DNA of 27,290 nt, taken from positions 1 through 27,290 of IMG/VR virus record IMGVR_UViG_3300043446_001198; one strand, written 5' to 3'. Each line of letters starts with the position of its first letter. The stretch's first letter is position 1. This document shows positions 7,599 to 19,383 of this stretch, one piece after another. Made by a program: the position numbers and the translations under genes. Under the pieces are notes generated by a model. It saw only the letters and a list, made by a program, of their open reading frames with translations. It did not search any database and was not told the DNA's origin. This stretch comes from a virus.

Positions 7599-9524
7599 TT
7601 ACGAAAGCTGAGTTATCTCCCAACCCTCCCCGGATTTGCTGATTGTCCCGTCCAATTTTGCGGCAGCAAACAACTCCTGGGCCTTGCGCTTTGAGCATCC
7701 AACCGATGCCACAATATGCTCAATGCAGTCGTTGTATCCATGCCCTTTGGGCCAGTCTGGTATGGCCTGTTCTATGGTCAGTTCCGGCCTTCCCCTGCCC
7801 TTGTTCTCAGGCCCATCAGAGCATTCCCAAGCCATCCACTCCTCTGCGTGCTTAAGCCATACATGGGTGGCGTACTTGCTGGCATGCAGGTCGGTATCGC
7901 TTTGCGGCCACGGGATAGCAGCCCTTCCTCCGCGCTTGGGAAAGGACAGCTTAAAATGCCCTTCCTTGACCGCCTGAAGGTACACCACGGCCCTTGCCCA
8001 ATTGGTAAGCTCACTTGACCCTATTCCTGCGTAGGCGAGGTCATAAAGCACCTGCGAACCTTGCCCTTCCTTGGGTGGCTTCGGCGTGTGGTGCATTACC
8101 ATCCAAGTCACACCAGTCGCCACACTGATCGGGTTCAGGCAATGCCGAAGGAACATTGTCATGTTCTCCTGGGCCAGCGCATCCCCTCCTATGAAGGACA
8201 GGAGCGGGTCAACCCAGCATAGGTCTGGTCTGTGCAATCCTATAAGGGCAGCAGCCATCTTGGCGAAGTCTTGCCCGGTCTTGGTAGAATCCCTGACGAT
8301 AACCACGTTGGCTAGGATCTGTGCGGACTGCTCCTCGGTCAGATTTAGCGTTCCCTTTAGGTGCCGAAGCACACCTTGTGCCATTTCAGCAACGTCACCA
8401 AGATCGTTCTCGGCCTGGATAAGCAGGCTACGAAGCGGCTTCTTAGGCGCGATGCCAAGGAACGGCAGGCCGATTGCCCAAGTCATCATGGCCTGAAGGC
8501 AGAGCGTGGACTTGCCAAGCCCCGAGCCTCCGACCCAGACGCAACTCCCGCCCCTGCACAACCAGCGATTGCCAAGCAAGCAATCACCATCCTCTTCCGC
8601 CTTGAATCCAAGGATGTCCGGCCACGGCGTAGGCTGTGGCAGGTTCATCGCCTCCATGTGCGCCTTCCACTCGCTCCATCCGCTGCGCCCCGTGTTCGTT
8701 GCGAGCAACGCCTGGTGGGCATTGGCGAGTTTCCTGGGCGCACCGGGGAGGCGCGATAGGCGAGAGGCATCCTTGTTCTTGGGGTCGATGTCGAACTGCG
8801 CCATCTTGGCGTAGAGATAGGAGACACGTTCCTCGTACTCCTTGGCATCCTTGGCCTCGACCTTGACCCATGCATGGACCGAGCGTGAGCCTGAATGGAT
8901 GACCGCAGAGCAAGGAAGCTCAAGGGCTGAAATGACCGACCACTGTTCCTCCATGGTTCCACTGTCGAACTCGATCAGGGCATGGCGGAAATTGGTGATG
9001 TCGTCCGACTTTCTGGATTGTCCGCATGGATTGATGCAGACGTACGCACCAACGTACGCATCTGGCAACTCTACCCCAGAATGAAACTGCTTAAGCCATT
9101 CCTCGCGGGTCTTGATGGTTCCTTTGCCCGACGGCCTTTCCGAGTCGTCCTGGTGTATTGCGCCCACAATGCACACCCGGTCGCCCTCGTTGAAGGCGGC
9201 AAGCAGGAACCGCCTGACATCATCGGCGTGGTGGCTGGGTTGCGGGCAAGGTTCCATGCGGATTGGTTCCTTTGGCTTGAAGGGATTGATGGACGTTCCA
9301 AGCGGTTGCCTTGCCGTGCGGCGATAGGCCGACTTGACCGCCGCCTCGATCTCCCTGTCCTTGAGGCCGGAGGATGCCGCTGAAGGGTAAAGCCTGTCTA
9401 TGGCCGAAGCCTCATCCATGCCAGCATCCCGCAACTGCTGTGCGGCCAGAAACAACTCCTCGTTGCGCTGACCCTCAGTTGCTCCGTTGCTGATGAAGTT
9501 CTCGGTTCTTTGGGGTAGTCTCAC
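7599..9524 (-). CDS. Primase-helicase, RepA-like (PriCT, AEP-like and RecA-like ATPase domains)
   Basis: I chose GTG at 9524: it overlaps the previous stop as GTGA and has GGAAAGGAAAGC before it. ATGs at 9554 and 9575 are alternatives but lie inside the previous gene. Numbering is from the GTG, 641 residues. The N-terminus (ATEGQRNEELFLAAQQLRDA, about 15-75) looks like a PriCT helical domain. It is followed by an archaeo-eukaryotic-primase-like region with HALIEFDSG, GSRSVHAWVKV and KDASRLSRLPGAPR (about 180-265). A RepA/RecA-type ATPase has Walker A VGGSGLGKST (331-340), Walker B DLCWVDPLL (434-442) and MVMHHTPKP. It probably primes and unwinds phage DNA. No DNA polymerase is visible in the window, so that function comes from the host or the unseen part. 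Confidence 0.85.
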   Translation of the reverse strand: MRLPQRTENFISNGATEGQRNEELFLAAQQLRDAGMDEASAIDRLYPSAASSGLKDREIEAAVKSAYRRTARQPLGTSINPFKPKEPIRMEPCPQPSHHADDVRRFLLAAFNEGDRVCIVGAIHQDDSERPSGKGTIKTREEWLKQFHSGVELPDAYVGAYVCINPCGQSRKSDDITNFRHALIEFDSGTMEEQWSVISALELPCSAVIHSGSRSVHAWVKVEAKDAKEYEERVSYLYAKMAQFDIDPKNKDASRLSRLPGAPRKLANAHQALLATNTGRSGWSEWKAHMEAMNLPQPTPWPDILGFKAEEDGDCLLGNRWLCRGGSCVWVGGSGLGKSTLCLQAMMTWAIGLPFLGIAPKKPLRSLLIQAENDLGDVAEMAQGVLRHLKGTLNLTEEQSAQILANVVIVRDSTKTGQDFAKMAAALIGLHRPDLCWVDPLLSFIGGDALAQENMTMFLRHCLNPISVATGVTWMVMHHTPKPPKEGQGSQVLYDLAYAGIGSSELTNWARAVVYLQAVKEGHFKLSFPKRGGRAAIPWPQSDTDLHASKYATHVWLKHAEEWMAWECSDGPENKGRGRPELTIEQAIPDWPKGHGYNDCIEHIVASVGCSKRKAQELFAAAKLDGTISKSGEGWEITQLS

Positions 9525-10087
9525 GCTTTCCTTTCCATGATTGCCTTCGTGCATTTGATCGCCTGATCCACGCATGACTTGGCATCATCCATGACCTCTT
9601 TTGCTGCGAATCTCAAAACAGTCCAGCCATTTTCAGTGCAATCCCTGTCCCTAGCCCGATCCCTTGTGAATGATTCCCTGCTGTTATGGTATGCGTAGCC
9701 GTCGATCTCAATGGCCAACTTGATTTCTGGATTTGCGAAATCAAACCTATACGACCTGCCATTGCACTCCACGCAATGCTGTATTATTAGGTAATCTAAT
9801 GCTTCATCGTTCCATGCCTTATGGAACATCCGCTCGACTTCGCTTTCGTATGAGTGGGCAAAGGCGCAAGCCACAAGCTCAAGCGCATCGGTTCTGCTTA
9901 TTCTGCTTGATGTGAGTGGGCCACCCTTTGCCTTGAAGATTCTTATGGCTCCATCTTGTCCGGCGTTCCACACGCGACAGTACATGGCAATGGCCGCGCA
10001 GGATGCATAAAATTCGCTGGCTGGCGCGTCATCGCTAACCCCGCAAAGCCTTTTGATAATAGTACGGAAGTCTTGATCGAAACTCAT
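9521..10087 (-). CDS. DUF559/Vsr-like endonuclease-fold protein
   Basis: A 188-residue protein whose C-terminal half is a PD-(D/E)XK fold of the DUF559 or very-short-patch-repair type: YRFDFANPEIKLAIEIDGYA with Asp116, Glu127 and Asp129, then YHNSRESFTRDRARDRDCTE and GWTVLRFAAKEV. The N-terminal half (about 1-100) has no known motif but contains several Cys residues, as does CVECNGR just before the nuclease core. It is likely a DNA nuclease in repair, recombination or host-DNA attack. It sits directly upstream of the primase-helicase. The start ATG at 10087 has GAGGCTAATAA before it. The stop overlaps the next start as GTGA. Confidence 0.75.
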   Translation of the reverse strand: MSFDQDFRTIIKRLCGVSDDAPASEFYASCAAIAMYCRVWNAGQDGAIRIFKAKGGPLTSSRISRTDALELVACAFAHSYESEVERMFHKAWNDEALDYLIIQHCVECNGRSYRFDFANPEIKLAIEIDGYAYHNSRESFTRDRARDRDCTENGWTVLRFAAKEVMDDAKSCVDQAIKCTKAIMERKA

Positions 10088-11439: not shown

Positions 11440-11579
11440 TGGGATTTCTCCATTTTGGTTGAAACAACCGCCACATAGCATTTAGCCAAGTCATCAAGAT
11501 CAAGCTTGCAAAGATTCTCAAGCTCGCCTTCTGGCAAGGCTGTCATTATTTCCTTTATCATTTCCTGCTTCACGTTCAT
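11436..11579 (-). CDS. 47-residue hypothetical protein overlapping the methyltransferase 3' end
   Basis: ATG at 11579 follows a strong ribosome site (GGAGGATAAAA). The frame reads MNVKQEMIKEIMTALPEGEL then ENLCKLDLDDLAKCYVAVVS and ends TKMEKSQ. It overlaps the last 62 nt of the methyltransferase gene in another frame, and its stop overlaps the glycosyltransferase start (ATGA). The ribosome site begins just after the stop of the nested frame 11592-12545. It is a small helical acidic protein with no known motif. Confidence 0.65.
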   Translation of the reverse strand: MNVKQEMIKEIMTALPEGELENLCKLDLDDLAKCYVAVVSTKMEKSQ

Positions 11580-12549
11580 TTTTATCCTCCATTACTTTGT
11601 TGATGCATCTGATAATTTCCGCCGCGACTTGCGGGACGATGGCATTTCCGAGTCCACGCAGTTTAGCCACTCGGTTGGGTACCCCATGAGCCACGCGACC
11701 CACGTTGGGTTCAGAGAGCCATTGATGTGGTTGCCATCCGCCGTCACCACTCTCCCCAATGTGTCGATCCTGTTCTTTCCATCCTTCCTTATCGTTGCCC
11801 TCAACTCTCCCGTGTCCTTCCAGTCTCGTGCGCTGGCTGTTGGCCACATCACCGACTCGTTCACCGCCTTCACCAGACACCTGAACCGATTGTCCTTCGG
11901 GTTCACTTCGGCCGAGTTGTCCACAATCGGCGTCGGCCACATCTGCGGATGAACCACCTGCTCCCGCAAATTTCCGCTCCTCGACCTGCCCTCTCTGTTT
12001 TTCTGGTTGGTCGAGCAGTTTTCCGAATCCCTGGGCGGCAGCATATCCATCGAGTTTGGTGTCGCCCACATTGCGTGCGATGATCCACACCCTGTCCCTT
12101 CTGTGCGGAGCATCGACGGCGCAAGCTGGAATAATGATCGGCTCGACCTCGTAACCCTCCGCTTCCAGGTCAGCACACACCGTGTCGAGTGCCAGGTTGA
12201 CGATTCCAGCAACATTCTCACCAATGATCCAAGCTGGCCTTGCCTCGCGTATGACTCGGCACATTTCCGGCCAGAGATAGCGGTTGTCGTCCTTGCCTCG
12301 CTGCTTCCCGGCAACACTGAATGGCTGGCACGGAAACCCTCCTGTGAGAAGAGTGACTCCTGCGTATAGGTCGCCTCGTACTTCCCTGATGTCCTTGTGG
12401 CAGGGGACTTCCGGCCAGTGCTTTTTGATGACCGCTTGGGCGTATGGCTCATTGTCACAGAAGCCAACGGTTCTATACCCGTTCCACTTGGCTGCCAAGG
12501 CAAATCCCCCGATGCCTGAGAAAAGGTCGAGATGGGTGCGCTCATTCAT
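11518..12549 (-). CDS. dcm: DNA (cytosine-5) methyltransferase
   Basis: A 343-residue enzyme starting MNERTHLDLFSGIGGFALAA. The SAM loop DLFSGIGG (8-15), catalytic Cys74 in GGFPCQPFSVAG, ENV (111-113), HRRDRVWIIA (149-158) and the C-terminal LRGLGNAIVPQVAAEII (motif X) are all present, so it should be active. The region between motifs VIII and X contains two VAD/VAN repeats (VADADCGQLG, VANSQRTRLE) that form the target-recognition part; the specificity cannot be read. It transfers a methyl group to cytosine C5, likely protecting phage DNA from host restriction. The ATG at 12549 overlaps the stop of the HTH gene. The C-terminal 21 codons overlap the next gene, and an entire second ORF lies within it in another frame. 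Confidence 0.92.
   Translation of the reverse strand: MNERTHLDLFSGIGGFALAAKWNGYRTVGFCDNEPYAQAVIKKHWPEVPCHKDIREVRGDLYAGVTLLTGGFPCQPFSVAGKQRGKDDNRYLWPEMCRVIREARPAWIIGENVAGIVNLALDTVCADLEAEGYEVEPIIIPACAVDAPHRRDRVWIIARNVGDTKLDGYAAAQGFGKLLDQPEKQRGQVEERKFAGAGGSSADVADADCGQLGRSEPEGQSVQVSGEGGERVGDVANSQRTRLEGHGRVEGNDKEGWKEQDRHIGESGDGGWQPHQWLSEPNVGRVAHGVPNRVAKLRGLGNAIVPQVAAEIIRCINKVMEDKNEREAGNDKGNNDSLARRRA
11592..12545 (-). CDS. Nested 317-codon ORF inside the methyltransferase gene (WPTP/LNPxWVxWLMG type)
   Basis: A second frame on the same strand is open for 317 codons, from ATG 12545 (4 nt after the methyltransferase ATG and directly abutting the HTH-gene stop) to TAA 11594-11592. The C-terminal half contains MWATPNSMD, MWPTPIVDNS, MWPTASARDWKDTG, LGRVVTADGN and GSLNPTWVAWLMGYPTEWL. 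From memory this matches a group of phage proteins annotated as methyltransferase-related (WPTPTA...LNPxWVEWLMGFPxGWT). The ribosome site GGGGTGG lies 6 nt before this ATG but only 2 nt before the methyltransferase ATG. The stop lies just before the ribosome site of the next gene. It could be a genuine overprinted gene or a frame kept open by methyltransferase codon bias. Confidence 0.45.
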   Translation of the reverse strand: MSAPISTFSQASGDLPWQPSGTGIEPLASVTMSHTPKRSSKSTGRKSPATRTSGKYEATYTQESLFSQEGFRASHSVLPGSSEARTTTAISGRKCAESYARQGQLGSLVRMLLESSTWHSTRCVLTWKRRVTRSSRSLFQLAPSMLRTEGTGCGSSHAMWATPNSMDMLPPRDSENCSTNQKNREGRSRSGNLREQVVHPQMWPTPIVDNSAEVNPKDNRFRCLVKAVNESVMWPTASARDWKDTGELRATIRKDGKNRIDTLGRVVTADGNHINGSLNPTWVAWLMGYPTEWLNCVDSEMPSSRKSRRKLSDASTK

Positions 12550-12971
12550 TTCCACCCCGCCACGAAGCCCTTGTTGCGGGCGTACTCGACCGATGTCCTG
12601 TTGCACTTCCAAGCCCGTGCGATCTGGTGGGTGGTGTAGCCCTGCTCATGCTGGATCTTCCATAGTCCCCATCGCTTGCTGACTATCTCCTGGGTGCGGT
12701 TCCTTGCGCCCGACCGCTTGCACCCCGGCTTGATTCTGGATGGGATAACCGCCAATTCCTTCGGCACCACGATTTCCCTCTCATCAAGGATGTTGGCCAC
12801 CGCTATCTCGGCTGCCTGAAAGTTCTTTCTCTTTCGCTCGATGCGCCCAACCGTGATGTCGTGGCGCAGCCTTTGGATGGTCTGGACCGCCGCCACCAAC
12901 CGCCTCTCAAGCAGGTGGCTGTTGTCCTCAAGTGCCTTGATTCTGTCCGTCAGTATTTGCTGTGTGTTCAT
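12546..12971 (-). CDS. Coiled-coil plus helix-turn-helix DNA-binding protein
   Basis: A 141-residue protein. The N-terminus (MNTQQILTDRIKALEDNSHL then LERRLVAAVQTIQRLRHD, 1-40) is a likely coiled coil for dimerisation. A basic linker follows, and the C-terminus (WKIQHEQGYTTHQIARAWKC then NRTSVEYARNKGF, about 104-136) is a helix-turn-helix resembling DnaA-type or transposase-like DNA-binding domains. It is likely a phage regulator or replication accessory protein. AAAGGAGTTAAAGA before ATG 12971 is an excellent ribosome site, so the 44-nt overlap with the upstream gene is real. It could be the binder of the GCGGTA repeats, but nothing shows this directly. Confidence 0.7.
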   Translation of the reverse strand: MNTQQILTDRIKALEDNSHLLERRLVAAVQTIQRLRHDITVGRIERKRKNFQAAEIAVANILDEREIVVPKELAVIPSRIKPGCKRSGARNRTQEIVSKRWGLWKIQHEQGYTTHQIARAWKCNRTSVEYARNKGFVAGWK

Positions 12972-16475: not shown

Positions 16476-17254
16476 GCCCAGACTTTAAGCATGGCTTGGA
16501 ATGCAATACCTGCCTCGTGAAGTTCTTCCTCGCTCCACTGGTGGATCACCAGCGTTTCGGGATCGTTAGCCGCCAGAACCACAGAGACGCAAGCTGCCTT
16601 GGGGTTTTCCGATGCGATGCGGTAAGCCCATAATTGGGCCGCGTCCTGGTCATAGAATGGATCATATTTGGGATTAACTTTCCGATTCTTTAGGTCAATG
16701 ATCGCGTCACCAATTCCCTTTAGCCTGACGTAACCATCGCACCGTCCCGCATAACCAGCACCGACCAGTGCCTTTTCGCACCAGTAGGTTTTCTCGACGT
16801 TGTCTTCCGCCCATTCCTTGAAGGTTTTGATGTATGGCTGAAGTTCCGGGTCTTTGGAGCAACTACGTCCCAATAGGATATTCTCTGCCTGCTCATGCAT
16901 TTTTGTTCCATGATCTGCCGCTTTCTTTGTTTGTTGTTTGCTGTCCTCGACAACCCTTCTTGCGTACTCATCAAGCGACTCTCCGTCCATCTTGGGTAGC
17001 GTAAGTGCTGACTCTATGGCGCAAGAAATTTTCCAGCTGGTAAGCTGGGGTTTGTCCATGATGCCCAGGACGCTTGTTACCGACGGAAGCAGCCCCATCT
17101 TGCGGGCGTCCGTGACCGTGGTGTTGCGCTCATTGCCATTCTTACCAATGACAACGTGGGCGGACTCGCCTTCCTGTGTGTACCAATGTCCCGCCTGGTC
17201 CGTTTGGACCAGACGGGATTGGTTAGGCTCTTTCTGTGTGAGAGTGAGAGCCAC
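16436..17254 (-). CDS. RecB/Cas4-like PD-(D/E)XK exonuclease
   Basis: I take GTG at 17254 as the start, 4 nt after the upstream stop; the frame is open further but would overlap that gene by 170 nt. The 272-residue protein has an N-terminal region (KNGNERNTTVTDARKMGLLP then SVTSVLGIMDKPQLTSWK) and a nuclease core: HGTKMHEQAE (about 115-124), GRCDGYVRLKG with Asp173, and IIDLKNRK with Asp187 and Lys189, then DQDAAQLWAYR. This is the exonuclease layout of the RecB/Cas4/lambda-exonuclease group. With the single-strand-binding-like protein just upstream it suggests a recombination or replication-restart pair. Confidence 0.8.
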   Translation of the reverse strand: MALTLTQKEPNQSRLVQTDQAGHWYTQEGESAHVVIGKNGNERNTTVTDARKMGLLPSVTSVLGIMDKPQLTSWKISCAIESALTLPKMDGESLDEYARRVVEDSKQQTKKAADHGTKMHEQAENILLGRSCSKDPELQPYIKTFKEWAEDNVEKTYWCEKALVGAGYAGRCDGYVRLKGIGDAIIDLKNRKVNPKYDPFYDQDAAQLWAYRIASENPKAACVSVVLAANDPETLVIHQWSEEELHEAGIAFQAMLKVWAWSKRYNPPGMKL

Positions 17255-17258
17255 CGGA

Positions 17259-17903
17259 TTAGAACGGAACTTGGTTGCCGTCTCCGTCCGTGTCTCCAAC
17301 CTTGACCTGCGGTGCCGAAGACGCACCGGACAACTCCTTGCTTGCCCGGATCTTCTCCTGCAACCATTCAGGCAGTTCGTTGAACTGGCCACCCTCGCCC
17401 TGCTCGATCTCATAGAAGATATGGGCATTCTCGGTCTTGGCAGGAGCTTTCATAGACTTGGGCAGCTTGGCGATGCCTTGGATCGCGCAGTAGTTGCGAC
17501 CCGCTTGGCTGGTCTTGTGGACCAAGGTCAGTAAGCAAGCCTTGCCCAATAGGTTCTTAAGGCTGAAGCTGGCAAGTTCCTTGCTGGTAAACGCCTGACC
17601 CCGCCAAGTTTCGAGGTGCTTCCGCAAGGTCGCACGCTCTCCAAGGCTGCGGGTGAGTTCGATGGAGACAACCATCGGCTTCGTCACCTTGATCGTCTTG
17701 CCGTTCTCAGTCACCTCGCCTTCGATGACTTGATCCGGCAATTCAAAGGCCAAGCGGATTTTGGGGGTCCACTTCTCCTCGCCGTCCCAGGACACCTTTT
17801 GGGTGCCAAGGTCAACTTCGCTGAATAGAACTCCGATGGTCGCTCCGGCTTCGGGCAACTGGCGTTCTGTGTTTTTTGATGTCTCACTGATGGTTAGGCT
17901 CAT
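17259..17903 (-). CDS. Probable single-strand DNA-binding or recombination accessory protein
   Basis: A 214-residue protein: PEAGATIGVLFSEVDLGTQK, TPKIRLAFELPDQVIEG, then SIELTRSLGERATLRKHLET, WRGQAFTSKELASFSLKNLL and GKACLLTLVHKTSQAGRNYC. The pattern (LG-ATLRKHLE-WRG..FT..EL..F.LKNLLGK.C...V.H) recurs, from memory, in a phage family annotated as single-strand-binding or replication-related. The C-terminus is acidic and ends in Phe (GDTDGDGNQVPF), as in proteins that recruit partners through an acidic tip. GAGGAGAATAAATAAC before ATG 17903 is a good ribosome site. It lies directly upstream of the exonuclease. Confidence 0.6.
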   Translation of the reverse strand: MSLTISETSKNTERQLPEAGATIGVLFSEVDLGTQKVSWDGEEKWTPKIRLAFELPDQVIEGEVTENGKTIKVTKPMVVSIELTRSLGERATLRKHLETWRGQAFTSKELASFSLKNLLGKACLLTLVHKTSQAGRNYCAIQGIAKLPKSMKAPAKTENAHIFYEIEQGEGGQFNELPEWLQEKIRASKELSGASSAPQVKVGDTDGDGNQVPF

Positions 17904-17904
17904 G

Positions 17905-18132
17905 TTATTTATTCTCCTCTATTTCATTATAGTTTTTGCTTTTGTTTTTTAACGCATCCAATACTTTATCGTAATCATGTAAAATAATTCTTTTGCTTAT
18001 TTTCATGTATGGAATTATTTTATCATTTCTTAATCTTTCTATTGTTCTAATAGATAGATTTAATTTTTTAGATAATTCAGATGTTTTCATAAACATCTGT
18101 CTTGGTCTAATTTCCTCTATTTCTGTATTCAT
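17905..18132 (-). CDS. Helix-turn-helix protein of the MerR/excisionase type
   Basis: A 75-residue protein with MKTSELSKKLNLSIRTIERL followed by RNDKIIPYMKISKRIILHDY (about 15-55), the classic helix-turn-helix_17/excisionase fold with a wing. It probably binds DNA as a regulator of this operon; an excisionase role is less likely since no integrase is seen. The gene is visibly far more AT-rich than its neighbours, suggesting a separate origin. AGAAAGGACGAA before ATG 18132 is the ribosome site. The stop is 1 nt before the next ATG. Confidence 0.75.
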   Translation of the reverse strand: MNTEIEEIRPRQMFMKTSELSKKLNLSIRTIERLRNDKIIPYMKISKRIILHDYDKVLDALKNKSKNYNEIEENK

Positions 18133-18142
18133 TTCGTCCTTT

Positions 18143-18580
18143 CTAGTTTGGTTTGTTTGGATTTATTGGTTGGGAAGGCATTACAAACCCCTGCGCCACG
18201 GTGGTTGCAACAGGGGATGTGTGGACGACATCTACCGTAAAATTTGGAGGAGCTATGTGGCGGGCAATCTCGCAAAGATCGTCGGCTTGCACGATAGCCA
18301 GCCACTTCTTCTCGCCGTTGCGGCGAAAAAACACTGCGGGGATCTTGCCCTCTGGCGCATCGGACTTGGCCTGACGCATCCACTCTTCAGGCTTGATCTG
18401 TTGGCAACGTTTGACTTCGCAGTGAAATGGAAAATTGGCGCAAACCACATCGCCAGATCCGCCCTCTGGATTGCCAGCGTACTGTTGCGTTCTGCGAGCT
18501 TTCTGCCATCCCTGCTCACGCAGGTAGGATGCAAACTCGCGCTCCCCCGCAGCGCCCTTACGTCTGGAGTTTATTGCCAT
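18143..18580 (-). CDS. Holliday junction resolvase-like PD-(D/E)XK nuclease
   Basis: A 145-residue protein. MAINSRRKGAAGEREFASYL carries Glu13, QYAGNPEGGSGDVVCANFPF carries Asp44, and HCEVKRCQ carries Glu55 and Lys57. This E...GxGDV...ExK order, with the GAAGEREF start, is that of archaeal-type Holliday junction resolvases found in many phages. It would cut branched recombination or replication intermediates before packaging. The C-terminus past residue 105 is extra and variable (SQPINPNKPN). The ATG at 18580 overlaps the stop of the previous gene by 10 nt. Confidence 0.8.
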   Translation of the reverse strand: MAINSRRKGAAGEREFASYLREQGWQKARRTQQYAGNPEGGSGDVVCANFPFHCEVKRCQQIKPEEWMRQAKSDAPEGKIPAVFFRRNGEKKWLAIVQADDLCEIARHIAPPNFTVDVVHTSPVATTVAQGFVMPSQPINPNKPN

Positions 18581-18804
18581 AGGAGTTCCATGGTAACATC
18601 ACTGTCAAGCGACCCCTGCAACGCCAACACCGGCTTGGCGTTTTTGCACTTGTCGGAAAACTCGGAAATGGCGCGTTGCGTTACGACAAATGTGTTGCTT
18701 GGAGATTCGCAGCAAGCCGCACCAAGCACCATGCCCATTAGGATTTTCTGGGAGTAAGCGTCCATGCCAGAAAGCAGGACTTTGTGTTCTCCTGGCAGGT
18801 ACAT
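18571..18804 (-). CDS. First gene of the replication/modification operon, unknown function
   Basis: A 77-residue protein beginning MYLPGEHKVLLSGMDAYSQK, followed by the Gly- and Cys-containing segment ILMGMVLGAACCESPSNTFV and ending DSDVTMELLWQ. No known family. It starts 6 nt after the -10 box of the promoter/operator at 18802-18838, with no ribosome site, so the message may be leaderless. It overlaps the resolvase gene by 10 nt. Confidence 0.6.
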   Translation of the reverse strand: MYLPGEHKVLLSGMDAYSQKILMGMVLGAACCESPSNTFVVTQRAISEFSDKCKNAKPVLALQGSLDSDVTMELLWQ

Positions 18805-18841: not shown

Positions 18842-19027
18842 TTATTTTTTAAGCTTAATGTCTTCCTCAAAACAAGCCAGCAGCCCCGCACCCGTCATCT
18901 TTCTGGCCACATCGGAATTTGCACGCAACCATTCGGCCGCCTCTTCGATGTCATTAGAATCCCTAATGGCTTCCTCAAAGATGCGCCAAGCATCCCGCGA
19001 TGTCATAGGTCGTTTACGATGCGCCAT
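18842..19027 (-). CDS. 61-residue helical protein, unknown function
   Basis: Starting with ATG 19027: MAHRKRPMTSRDAWRIFEEA, then IRDSNDIEEAAEWLRANSDV and ending LLACFEEDIKLKK. Almost entirely helical and charged. An upstream in-frame start at 19072 would lengthen the overlap with the nuclease gene (25 nt as annotated). It ends just before the promoter at 18802-18838. No known family. Confidence 0.55.
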   Translation of the reverse strand: MAHRKRPMTSRDAWRIFEEAIRDSNDIEEAAEWLRANSDVARKMTGAGLLACFEEDIKLKK

Positions 19028-19383
19028 GATGATCCCGTCTTTGGGTATAGCTTTTTGGTTGGGCCTTTGCAATCGGATGGTCTTAGCAGCCAGAACAAGT
19101 CTTCATCCATAGCCCACGCAATCAAATAATCAATACGATCCCTTGTGTATTTTAATTTACTTTCGCATCCAGTGCTGGTCATAAAACGATAATAAGTTTT
19201 GTCTCCCTCTGTTCGGCTGGTTGTCTTTACCTGGATTCTGTGAAACTTTCCATCTTTCTCTGCCACTAGATCATAACCAGCAAAATCCTCCATAGGGGCA
19301 AGCACGGAGTAGCCATTGCGGAACAACGCCCCGGCCACCCTGGCCACCCCGACTGCTCCTATCTGGCGGTTGGTTAATTTCAT
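19003..19383 (-). CDS. PD-(D/E)XK endonuclease-like protein (PDDEXK_5/group I intron endonuclease type)
   Basis: A 126-residue protein. GAVGVARVAGALFRNGYSVL, then EDFAGYDLVAEKDGKFHRIQ with Asp38 and VKTTSRTEGDKTYYRF (Gln51-Val-Lys53), has the D...QxK core seen in small nucleases related to group I intron endonucleases and other stand-alone PD-(D/E)XK proteins. No intron or target site is visible, so it may be a repair or host-DNA nuclease. ATG at 19383 has no clear ribosome site. It is transcribed divergently from the secreted-protein gene at 19421. Confidence 0.7.
   Translation of the reverse strand: MKLTNRQIGAVGVARVAGALFRNGYSVLAPMEDFAGYDLVAEKDGKFHRIQVKTTSRTEGDKTYYRFMTSTGCESKLKYTRDRIDYLIAWAMDEDLFWLLRPSDCKGPTKKLYPKTGSSWRIVNDL

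Follow-up and report, generated by a model that had tools for sequence, protein, structure and literature searches.

A 317-codon ORF nested in a C5-cytosine methyltransferase gene is a genuine protein-coding frame and not a product of chance, and the two overlapping frames very probably encode the two subunits of one C5-cytosine DNA methyltransferase. The gene (alpha) and the nested ORF (beta) lie in a 27,290-nucleotide stretch of DNA (the window), which is a tailed-phage contig with a terminase and a primase. Alpha would contribute the large catalytic domain, i.e., the AdoMet site, the catalytic Cys74 and motifs I-VIII and X, and beta, begun 4 nt later in the +1 frame, would contribute motif IX and presumably the target-recognition part, represented by WPTP-type repeats. 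Neighbouring starts on a single mRNA would yield two chains, which would then join as one active, DNA-methylating enzyme; for the phage, such an enzyme may shield its own DNA from host restriction. In ordinary single-chain enzymes, motif IX and the target-recognition part are located between motifs VIII and X, and because the C5 methyltransferase motif set is complete once alpha and beta are taken together, a heterodimer is the best reading of the pair.

The initial annotation had placed the 317-codon ORF wholly inside the methyltransferase gene, on the same strand and in another frame, and its coordinates are confirmed (Table 1): beta runs from its ATG to its TAA entirely within the alpha coding sequence, in the +1 frame relative to alpha. 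It had also been called an outlier among the shadow frames, which holds insofar as it is the longest of them, but others reach 198 and 254 aa and not about 170 codons as had been stated; these are long shadow or antisense ORFs at 16938-17534 (198 aa) and 17993-18757 (254 aa), both (+). The start sequence is GGGGTGGAAATGAATGAGC, with the beta ATG four bases downstream of the alpha ATG, and the stop that the beta start abuts is the TGA overlapping the alpha ATG (ATGA), the end of the upstream gene. The gene-like ends ascribed to the ORF were all found, namely the abutted stop, a GGGGTGG 6 nt ahead of the ATG and a TAA directly upstream of a GGAGG ribosome site, but the GGGGTGG is also 2 nt ahead of the alpha ATG. 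The GGAGG site belongs to a small downstream ORF (MNVKQEM..., window 11577-11579 (-) onward), which begins within the 3' end of alpha right after the beta stop, and the alpha C-terminus is thus overlapped by a third reading frame. Elsewhere on the contig, three PD-(D/E)XK or DUF559-type nuclease-like proteins are encoded (18143-18580, 19003-19383, 9521-10087 (-)).

Table 1. Positions in the window of the two nested ORFs and of their sequence features.
Feature	Position	Strand	Remarks
Alpha, C5-cytosine methyltransferase, 343 aa	11518..12549	-	Motifs I-VIII and X; motif IX absent from its own frame
Beta, nested +1-frame ORF, 317 aa	11592..12545	-	ATG at 12545, TAA ending at 11592; subunit bearing motif IX, the target-recognition part probably included
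Shared start region GGGGTGGAAATGAATG	12543..12558	-	Alpha ATG 12549-12547, beta ATG 12545-12543
Alpha residues 4-162, motifs I-VIII	12064..12540	-	Invariant P73 C74 Q75 P76 F77, E111, R153 and others; catalytic PCQPF encoded at 12319-12333
Beta residues 61-160, conserved domain over alpha motifs IV-VIII	12066..12365	-	Constraint in both frames
Linker	11721..12065	-	WPTP-type repeats in beta (11928-11939 and 11835-11846); alpha frame open, without detectable constraint
Beta motif IX GSLNPTWVAWLMGYPTEW	11667..11720	-	L211 alignment to M.HhaI RKLHPRECARVMGYPDSY; PF00145 match of the L045 fusion
Alpha motif X LRGLGNAIVPQVAAEIIRCI	11602..11661	-	Profile search against M.HhaI 298-318, weak alone; N302 and P306 invariant

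Alpha is recognizable as a C5-cytosine DNA methyltransferase by its catalytic large domain, in which motifs I, IV (PCQ), VI (ENV) and VIII are present, and it matches PHROG 363 (E = 5e-76) and PF00145 (E = 1e-41), the latter over profile positions 4-164 only. Beta matches PHROG 1008 ('DNA methyltransferase', E = 1e-30), which bears out the earlier proposal that a family annotated as methyltransferase-related corresponds to the methyltransferase gene read in its other frame. The codon correspondences given with that proposal are correct, as VADAD in alpha reads WPTPI, and EPNVGRVAHGVPNRV reads NPTWVAWLMGYPTEW, one frame over. A Pfam search with beta alone gave no recognised domain, and tblastn with the second frame found 33-36% identity in Paenibacillus and Lacticaseibacillus phages; in some GenBank records (Tadhana), both overlapping frames are annotated as methyltransferase. 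Next to one match, on an Enterobacter plasmid, a restriction gene was sought and none was annotated. Over 350 loci, in which some contigs are included twice, were collected in scans whose query was alpha, beta, an alignment of beta or alpha residues 4-60 alone. A mixed alignment of alpha and beta fragments was misaligned and was discarded. The +1 relation of alpha and beta is found in 130 of 130 unswapped loci, both frames are whole and in this relation in 233 of 283 loci, and one frame is broken in about 3% of loci. The overlap cannot be put down to a pseudogene or a sequencing error, the frame relation being constant over hundreds of contigs.

To estimate how often chance would leave such a frame open, the methyltransferase was recoded either with the codon usage of the window or by shuffling its own synonymous codons, and the longest +1 run was scored. 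A run of 317 codons was reached in 0 of 5,000 codon-usage simulations and in 0 of 5,000 within-gene shuffles (the 95th percentile was 164 codons for the former and 207 for the latter, and the longest runs were 292 and 306 codons, respectively). Among the relatives, in the region aligned to alpha residues 4-160, +1 stops number 0.88 per sequence as compared with 5.17 after synonymous shuffling, whereas +2 stops are not depleted (6.86 observed vs 7.21 shuffled), and stop avoidance is thus confined to the +1 frame.

Raw +1 identity measured against synonymous shuffles failed to separate +1 from +2, because conserved third bases lift both, and a fourfold-site test with an internal control was used instead. 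The control is provided by distant members, in which the second frame opens only near alpha residue 42-63, so that constrained and unconstrained stretches can be compared within the same genes. Between distant pairs (<62% identity), third bases of alpha fourfold sites match at 0.265 over residues 4-60 (0.261 expected) and at 0.465 over residues 61-162 (0.263 expected); between distant and close members the values are 0.238 (0.274) and 0.483 (0.275), respectively, and as the pairs are non-independent we claim no p-value for these differences. Stop depletion and the fourfold-site match inside the second frame together indicate that beta is protein-coding. The initial annotation had named second-frame stops in close homologues, unreduced synonymous change and recoded sequences that often stay open over 300 codons as findings that would speak against a second gene; stops proved rare in the relatives, synonymous change is sharply lower inside the second frame, and 317 codons were never reached in the 10,000 recodings.

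The fourfold sites of beta are first codon positions of alpha, and they report on the constraint acting on alpha. They match at 0.703 over alpha motifs IV-VIII (0.278 expected) and at 0.702 over alpha motif X (0.281 expected), as compared with 0.317 (0.290 expected) among distant members and 0.281 (0.285 expected) between distant and close members over beta residues 161-275, which lie between VIII and IX. This pattern indicates that alpha is constrained at motifs I-VIII and X, and beta at its N-terminal domain, the WPTP repeats and motif IX. From VIII to IX, the alpha sequence seems to be carried along without constraint of its own, and because alpha is unconstrained between VIII and X, the pattern suggests that target recognition belongs to beta.

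The start signals of beta are also conserved. The beta start of distant members lies within the alpha coding sequence, at about 160-190 nt, and among 76 such loci a Shine-Dalgarno match of at least 4 nt is found at 84% of beta starts vs 25% of other internal positions, and one of at least 5 nt at 58% vs 6%; since alpha starts were assigned by rule, these counts are approximate. In the clade of the window, 65 of 81 loci have ATG as the codon 4 nt past the alpha start, which itself is either ATG or GTG.

Motif IX of C5-methyltransferases (LNPTWVAWLMGYP) is found in beta and is absent from alpha, which retains I-VIII and X. When a profile of alpha was compared with M.HhaI, residues 9-173 were aligned and a sub-threshold piece was found at motif X, with nothing in between. 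By contrast, locus L211, from a Rickettsiales genome, encodes one chain in which I-VIII are followed by ERLNPDWVEWLMGYPISWTEGGSRKQRLMALGNSVVP, aligned to M.HhaI RKLHPRECARVMGYPDSYKVHPSTSQAYKQFGNSVV (motifs IX and X). PF00145 is covered over positions 2-322 by L211 and over 4-294 by L045, a natural alpha-beta fusion, vs 4-164 by the alpha of the window; because the single chain and the fusion fill the profile where alpha does not, we identify LNPTWVAWLMGYPTEW of beta as motif IX, although in any single alignment its similarity to M.HhaI is weak (6-7 bits). Motif IX falls within the alpha ORF in two of the loci found via alpha residues 4-60 alone, namely L325 (by pattern) and L306 (by eye), both fused, and nearly all the other complete loci have it in the +1 frame. 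The single chain of L211 (L211:2286-3317), with the beta-type motif IX in frame, may be an ancestor-like or a re-fused form. In three loci from gut Clostridia genomes (L176, L187 and L192), the intact motif IX is preceded by a second, degenerate segment resembling it, a pattern that duplication or exchange of the C-terminal module could have produced. The AlphaFold model of beta alone has a pLDDT of 60 and a pTM of 0.29, and a PDB search with it gave no match; in the model of a fused relative (L059), the large domain is M.HhaI-like, and the target-recognition and motif IX region is at low confidence.

These data allow other explanations of the overlap to be weighed. It is exceedingly improbable that the second frame merely follows from the composition of the methyltransferase sequence and that its database family is an artefact: the G-rich first codon position of the gene does lengthen +1 frames beyond the usual (the mean longest run in simulations is 99-130 codons), but simulations never attain the observed length, the third-base constraint sets in at the beta start and the start signals are conserved, so that stop depletion, fourfold-site constraint and Shine-Dalgarno data already contradict it. 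Thus, between the two alternatives originally put forward, DNA encoding two proteins is strongly supported, and the reading of database entries as frame artefacts is contradicted for this family.

A real beta protein could instead have a separate function, such as that of an inhibitor or a regulator, and merely overprint the methyltransferase. Conservation of both frames and the lack of a recognised Pfam domain in beta would fit such a protein, but it holds precisely the motif that alpha is missing, and a single-chain enzyme has the same motif between VIII and X, which makes a separate function quite unlikely. We regard as very unlikely a single chimeric product of programmed +1 frameshifting downstream of motif VIII, in place of two separately started chains. 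Frame-exchanged relatives do run alpha I-VIII straight into beta motif IX, but the conserved part of beta extends far upstream of such a junction, into the stretch over alpha motifs IV-VIII, and in distant members beta starts independently, behind a Shine-Dalgarno match, neither of which a frameshift product would need; moreover, motif X remains in the alpha frame. Overall, the interpretation in the initial annotation is partly supported; what it overlooked is that the second frame is the conserved one between VIII and X and carries motif IX, and hence that beta, instead of being an independent protein, most likely belongs to the same enzyme as a subunit.

Of 260 distinct loci, 17 have their N- and C-terminal halves joined in a different frame. 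Between VIII and IX, 13 of these 17 have a strong tract (a homopolymer of at least 8, or a dinucleotide repeated at least 6 times), compared with 15 of the 243 normal loci (Fisher p = 2e-11, which is optimistic as the loci are related). Three related contigs form a graded set: in L155 (G10) alpha I-VIII is fused to beta motif IX, L149 (G11) has the normal arrangement, and in L154 (G12) the beta N-terminus is fused to motif X; the L149 and L155 linkers differ by one G and are otherwise about 100% identical. A one-G difference likewise distinguishes L129 from L066 and L039 from L057, and L146, L147 and L148 differ mainly in (AG)10, 19 and 17, with assembly or homopolymer error being possible for individual contigs. 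Per kb, the linker has 0.336 G/C or AG/CT tracts of this kind and the rest of the loci 0.012, a 28-fold higher density, though same-composition shuffled linkers would by themselves yield about 7 of the 30 tracts. L059, L060, L187 and L192 also have a poly-G or (AG)n tract downstream of VIII, ahead of the motif IX module. The linker of the window has no G8-G12 or (AG)n tract.

These observations suggest that the pairing of N- and C-terminal modules depends on the length of the tract, as in slipped-strand phase variation. We lean slightly towards the view that part of the family is a three-state phase-variable switch, in which slippage of G8-G12 or (AG)n between VIII and IX would shift both downstream frames together, and the catalytic half would be joined to motif X (normal), to beta motif IX (fused) or to neither. 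If so, a frameshift in the switch does not simply destroy the gene. As a known parallel, a translational stop is caused by (AG)n repeats in the gene for a Type III methyltransferase (PMC3498834). Campylobacter phage DA10 was considered as a precedent for a phase-variable phage methyltransferase and set aside, the passages found on it describing none.

Through this analysis, two puzzling phage protein families become a single nested enzyme whose division of labour can be tested, and long same-strand gene overlap in phage methyltransferases is shown to be old and common. Gene callers that forbid overlaps lose one subunit, and such enzymes are thus probably mis-annotated; alpha cloned alone would look inactive. 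The loci would constitute a natural split-methyltransferase family, possibly with a switch where frameshifts swap domains. Within the literature searched, no paper was found on this nested methyltransferase family or on a phase-variable phage enzyme of this type; what is new here is the extent, along with a different assignment of labour between the chains and a possible switch.

PHROG 363 (alpha) and PHROG 1008 (beta) are both labelled 'DNA methyltransferase', and the search output gives no hint that they are two frames of one gene. Alpha shares its catalytic domain and motif order with M.HhaI and other single-chain C5 methyltransferases (PF00145), but these hold every motif in one chain, whereas the alpha of the window is without IX, which is in the +1 frame. 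The closest parallel is M.EcoHK31I, whose small chain, said to be 176 aa long, is reportedly encoded within the large chain's gene in another frame, just as the second gene is observed here to be nested in the first. M.EcoHK31I consists of two polypeptides, the large one with I-VIII and X and the small one with motif IX alone (PMC3404938), and, compared by description, alpha and beta resemble it and M.EaeI in having a large chain with I-VIII and X that lacks IX and a putative second polypeptide with IX, so that a similar working of the pair is well supported. Unlike in these two systems, the enzyme here belongs to a phage and is without an identified partner nuclease, and beta, at 317 aa, exceeds the small chain in length and has its start 4 nt behind that of alpha. 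The target-recognition domain of M.EcoHK31I is predicted in the large subunit (PMC3404938), counter to our assignment to beta, which follows from the unconstrained VIII-X stretch of alpha. In M.AquI, C5 methyltransferase activity is likewise divided over two chains (PMC3404938), but there the split falls within the variable region and the small chain has both IX and X, whereas alpha here keeps X.
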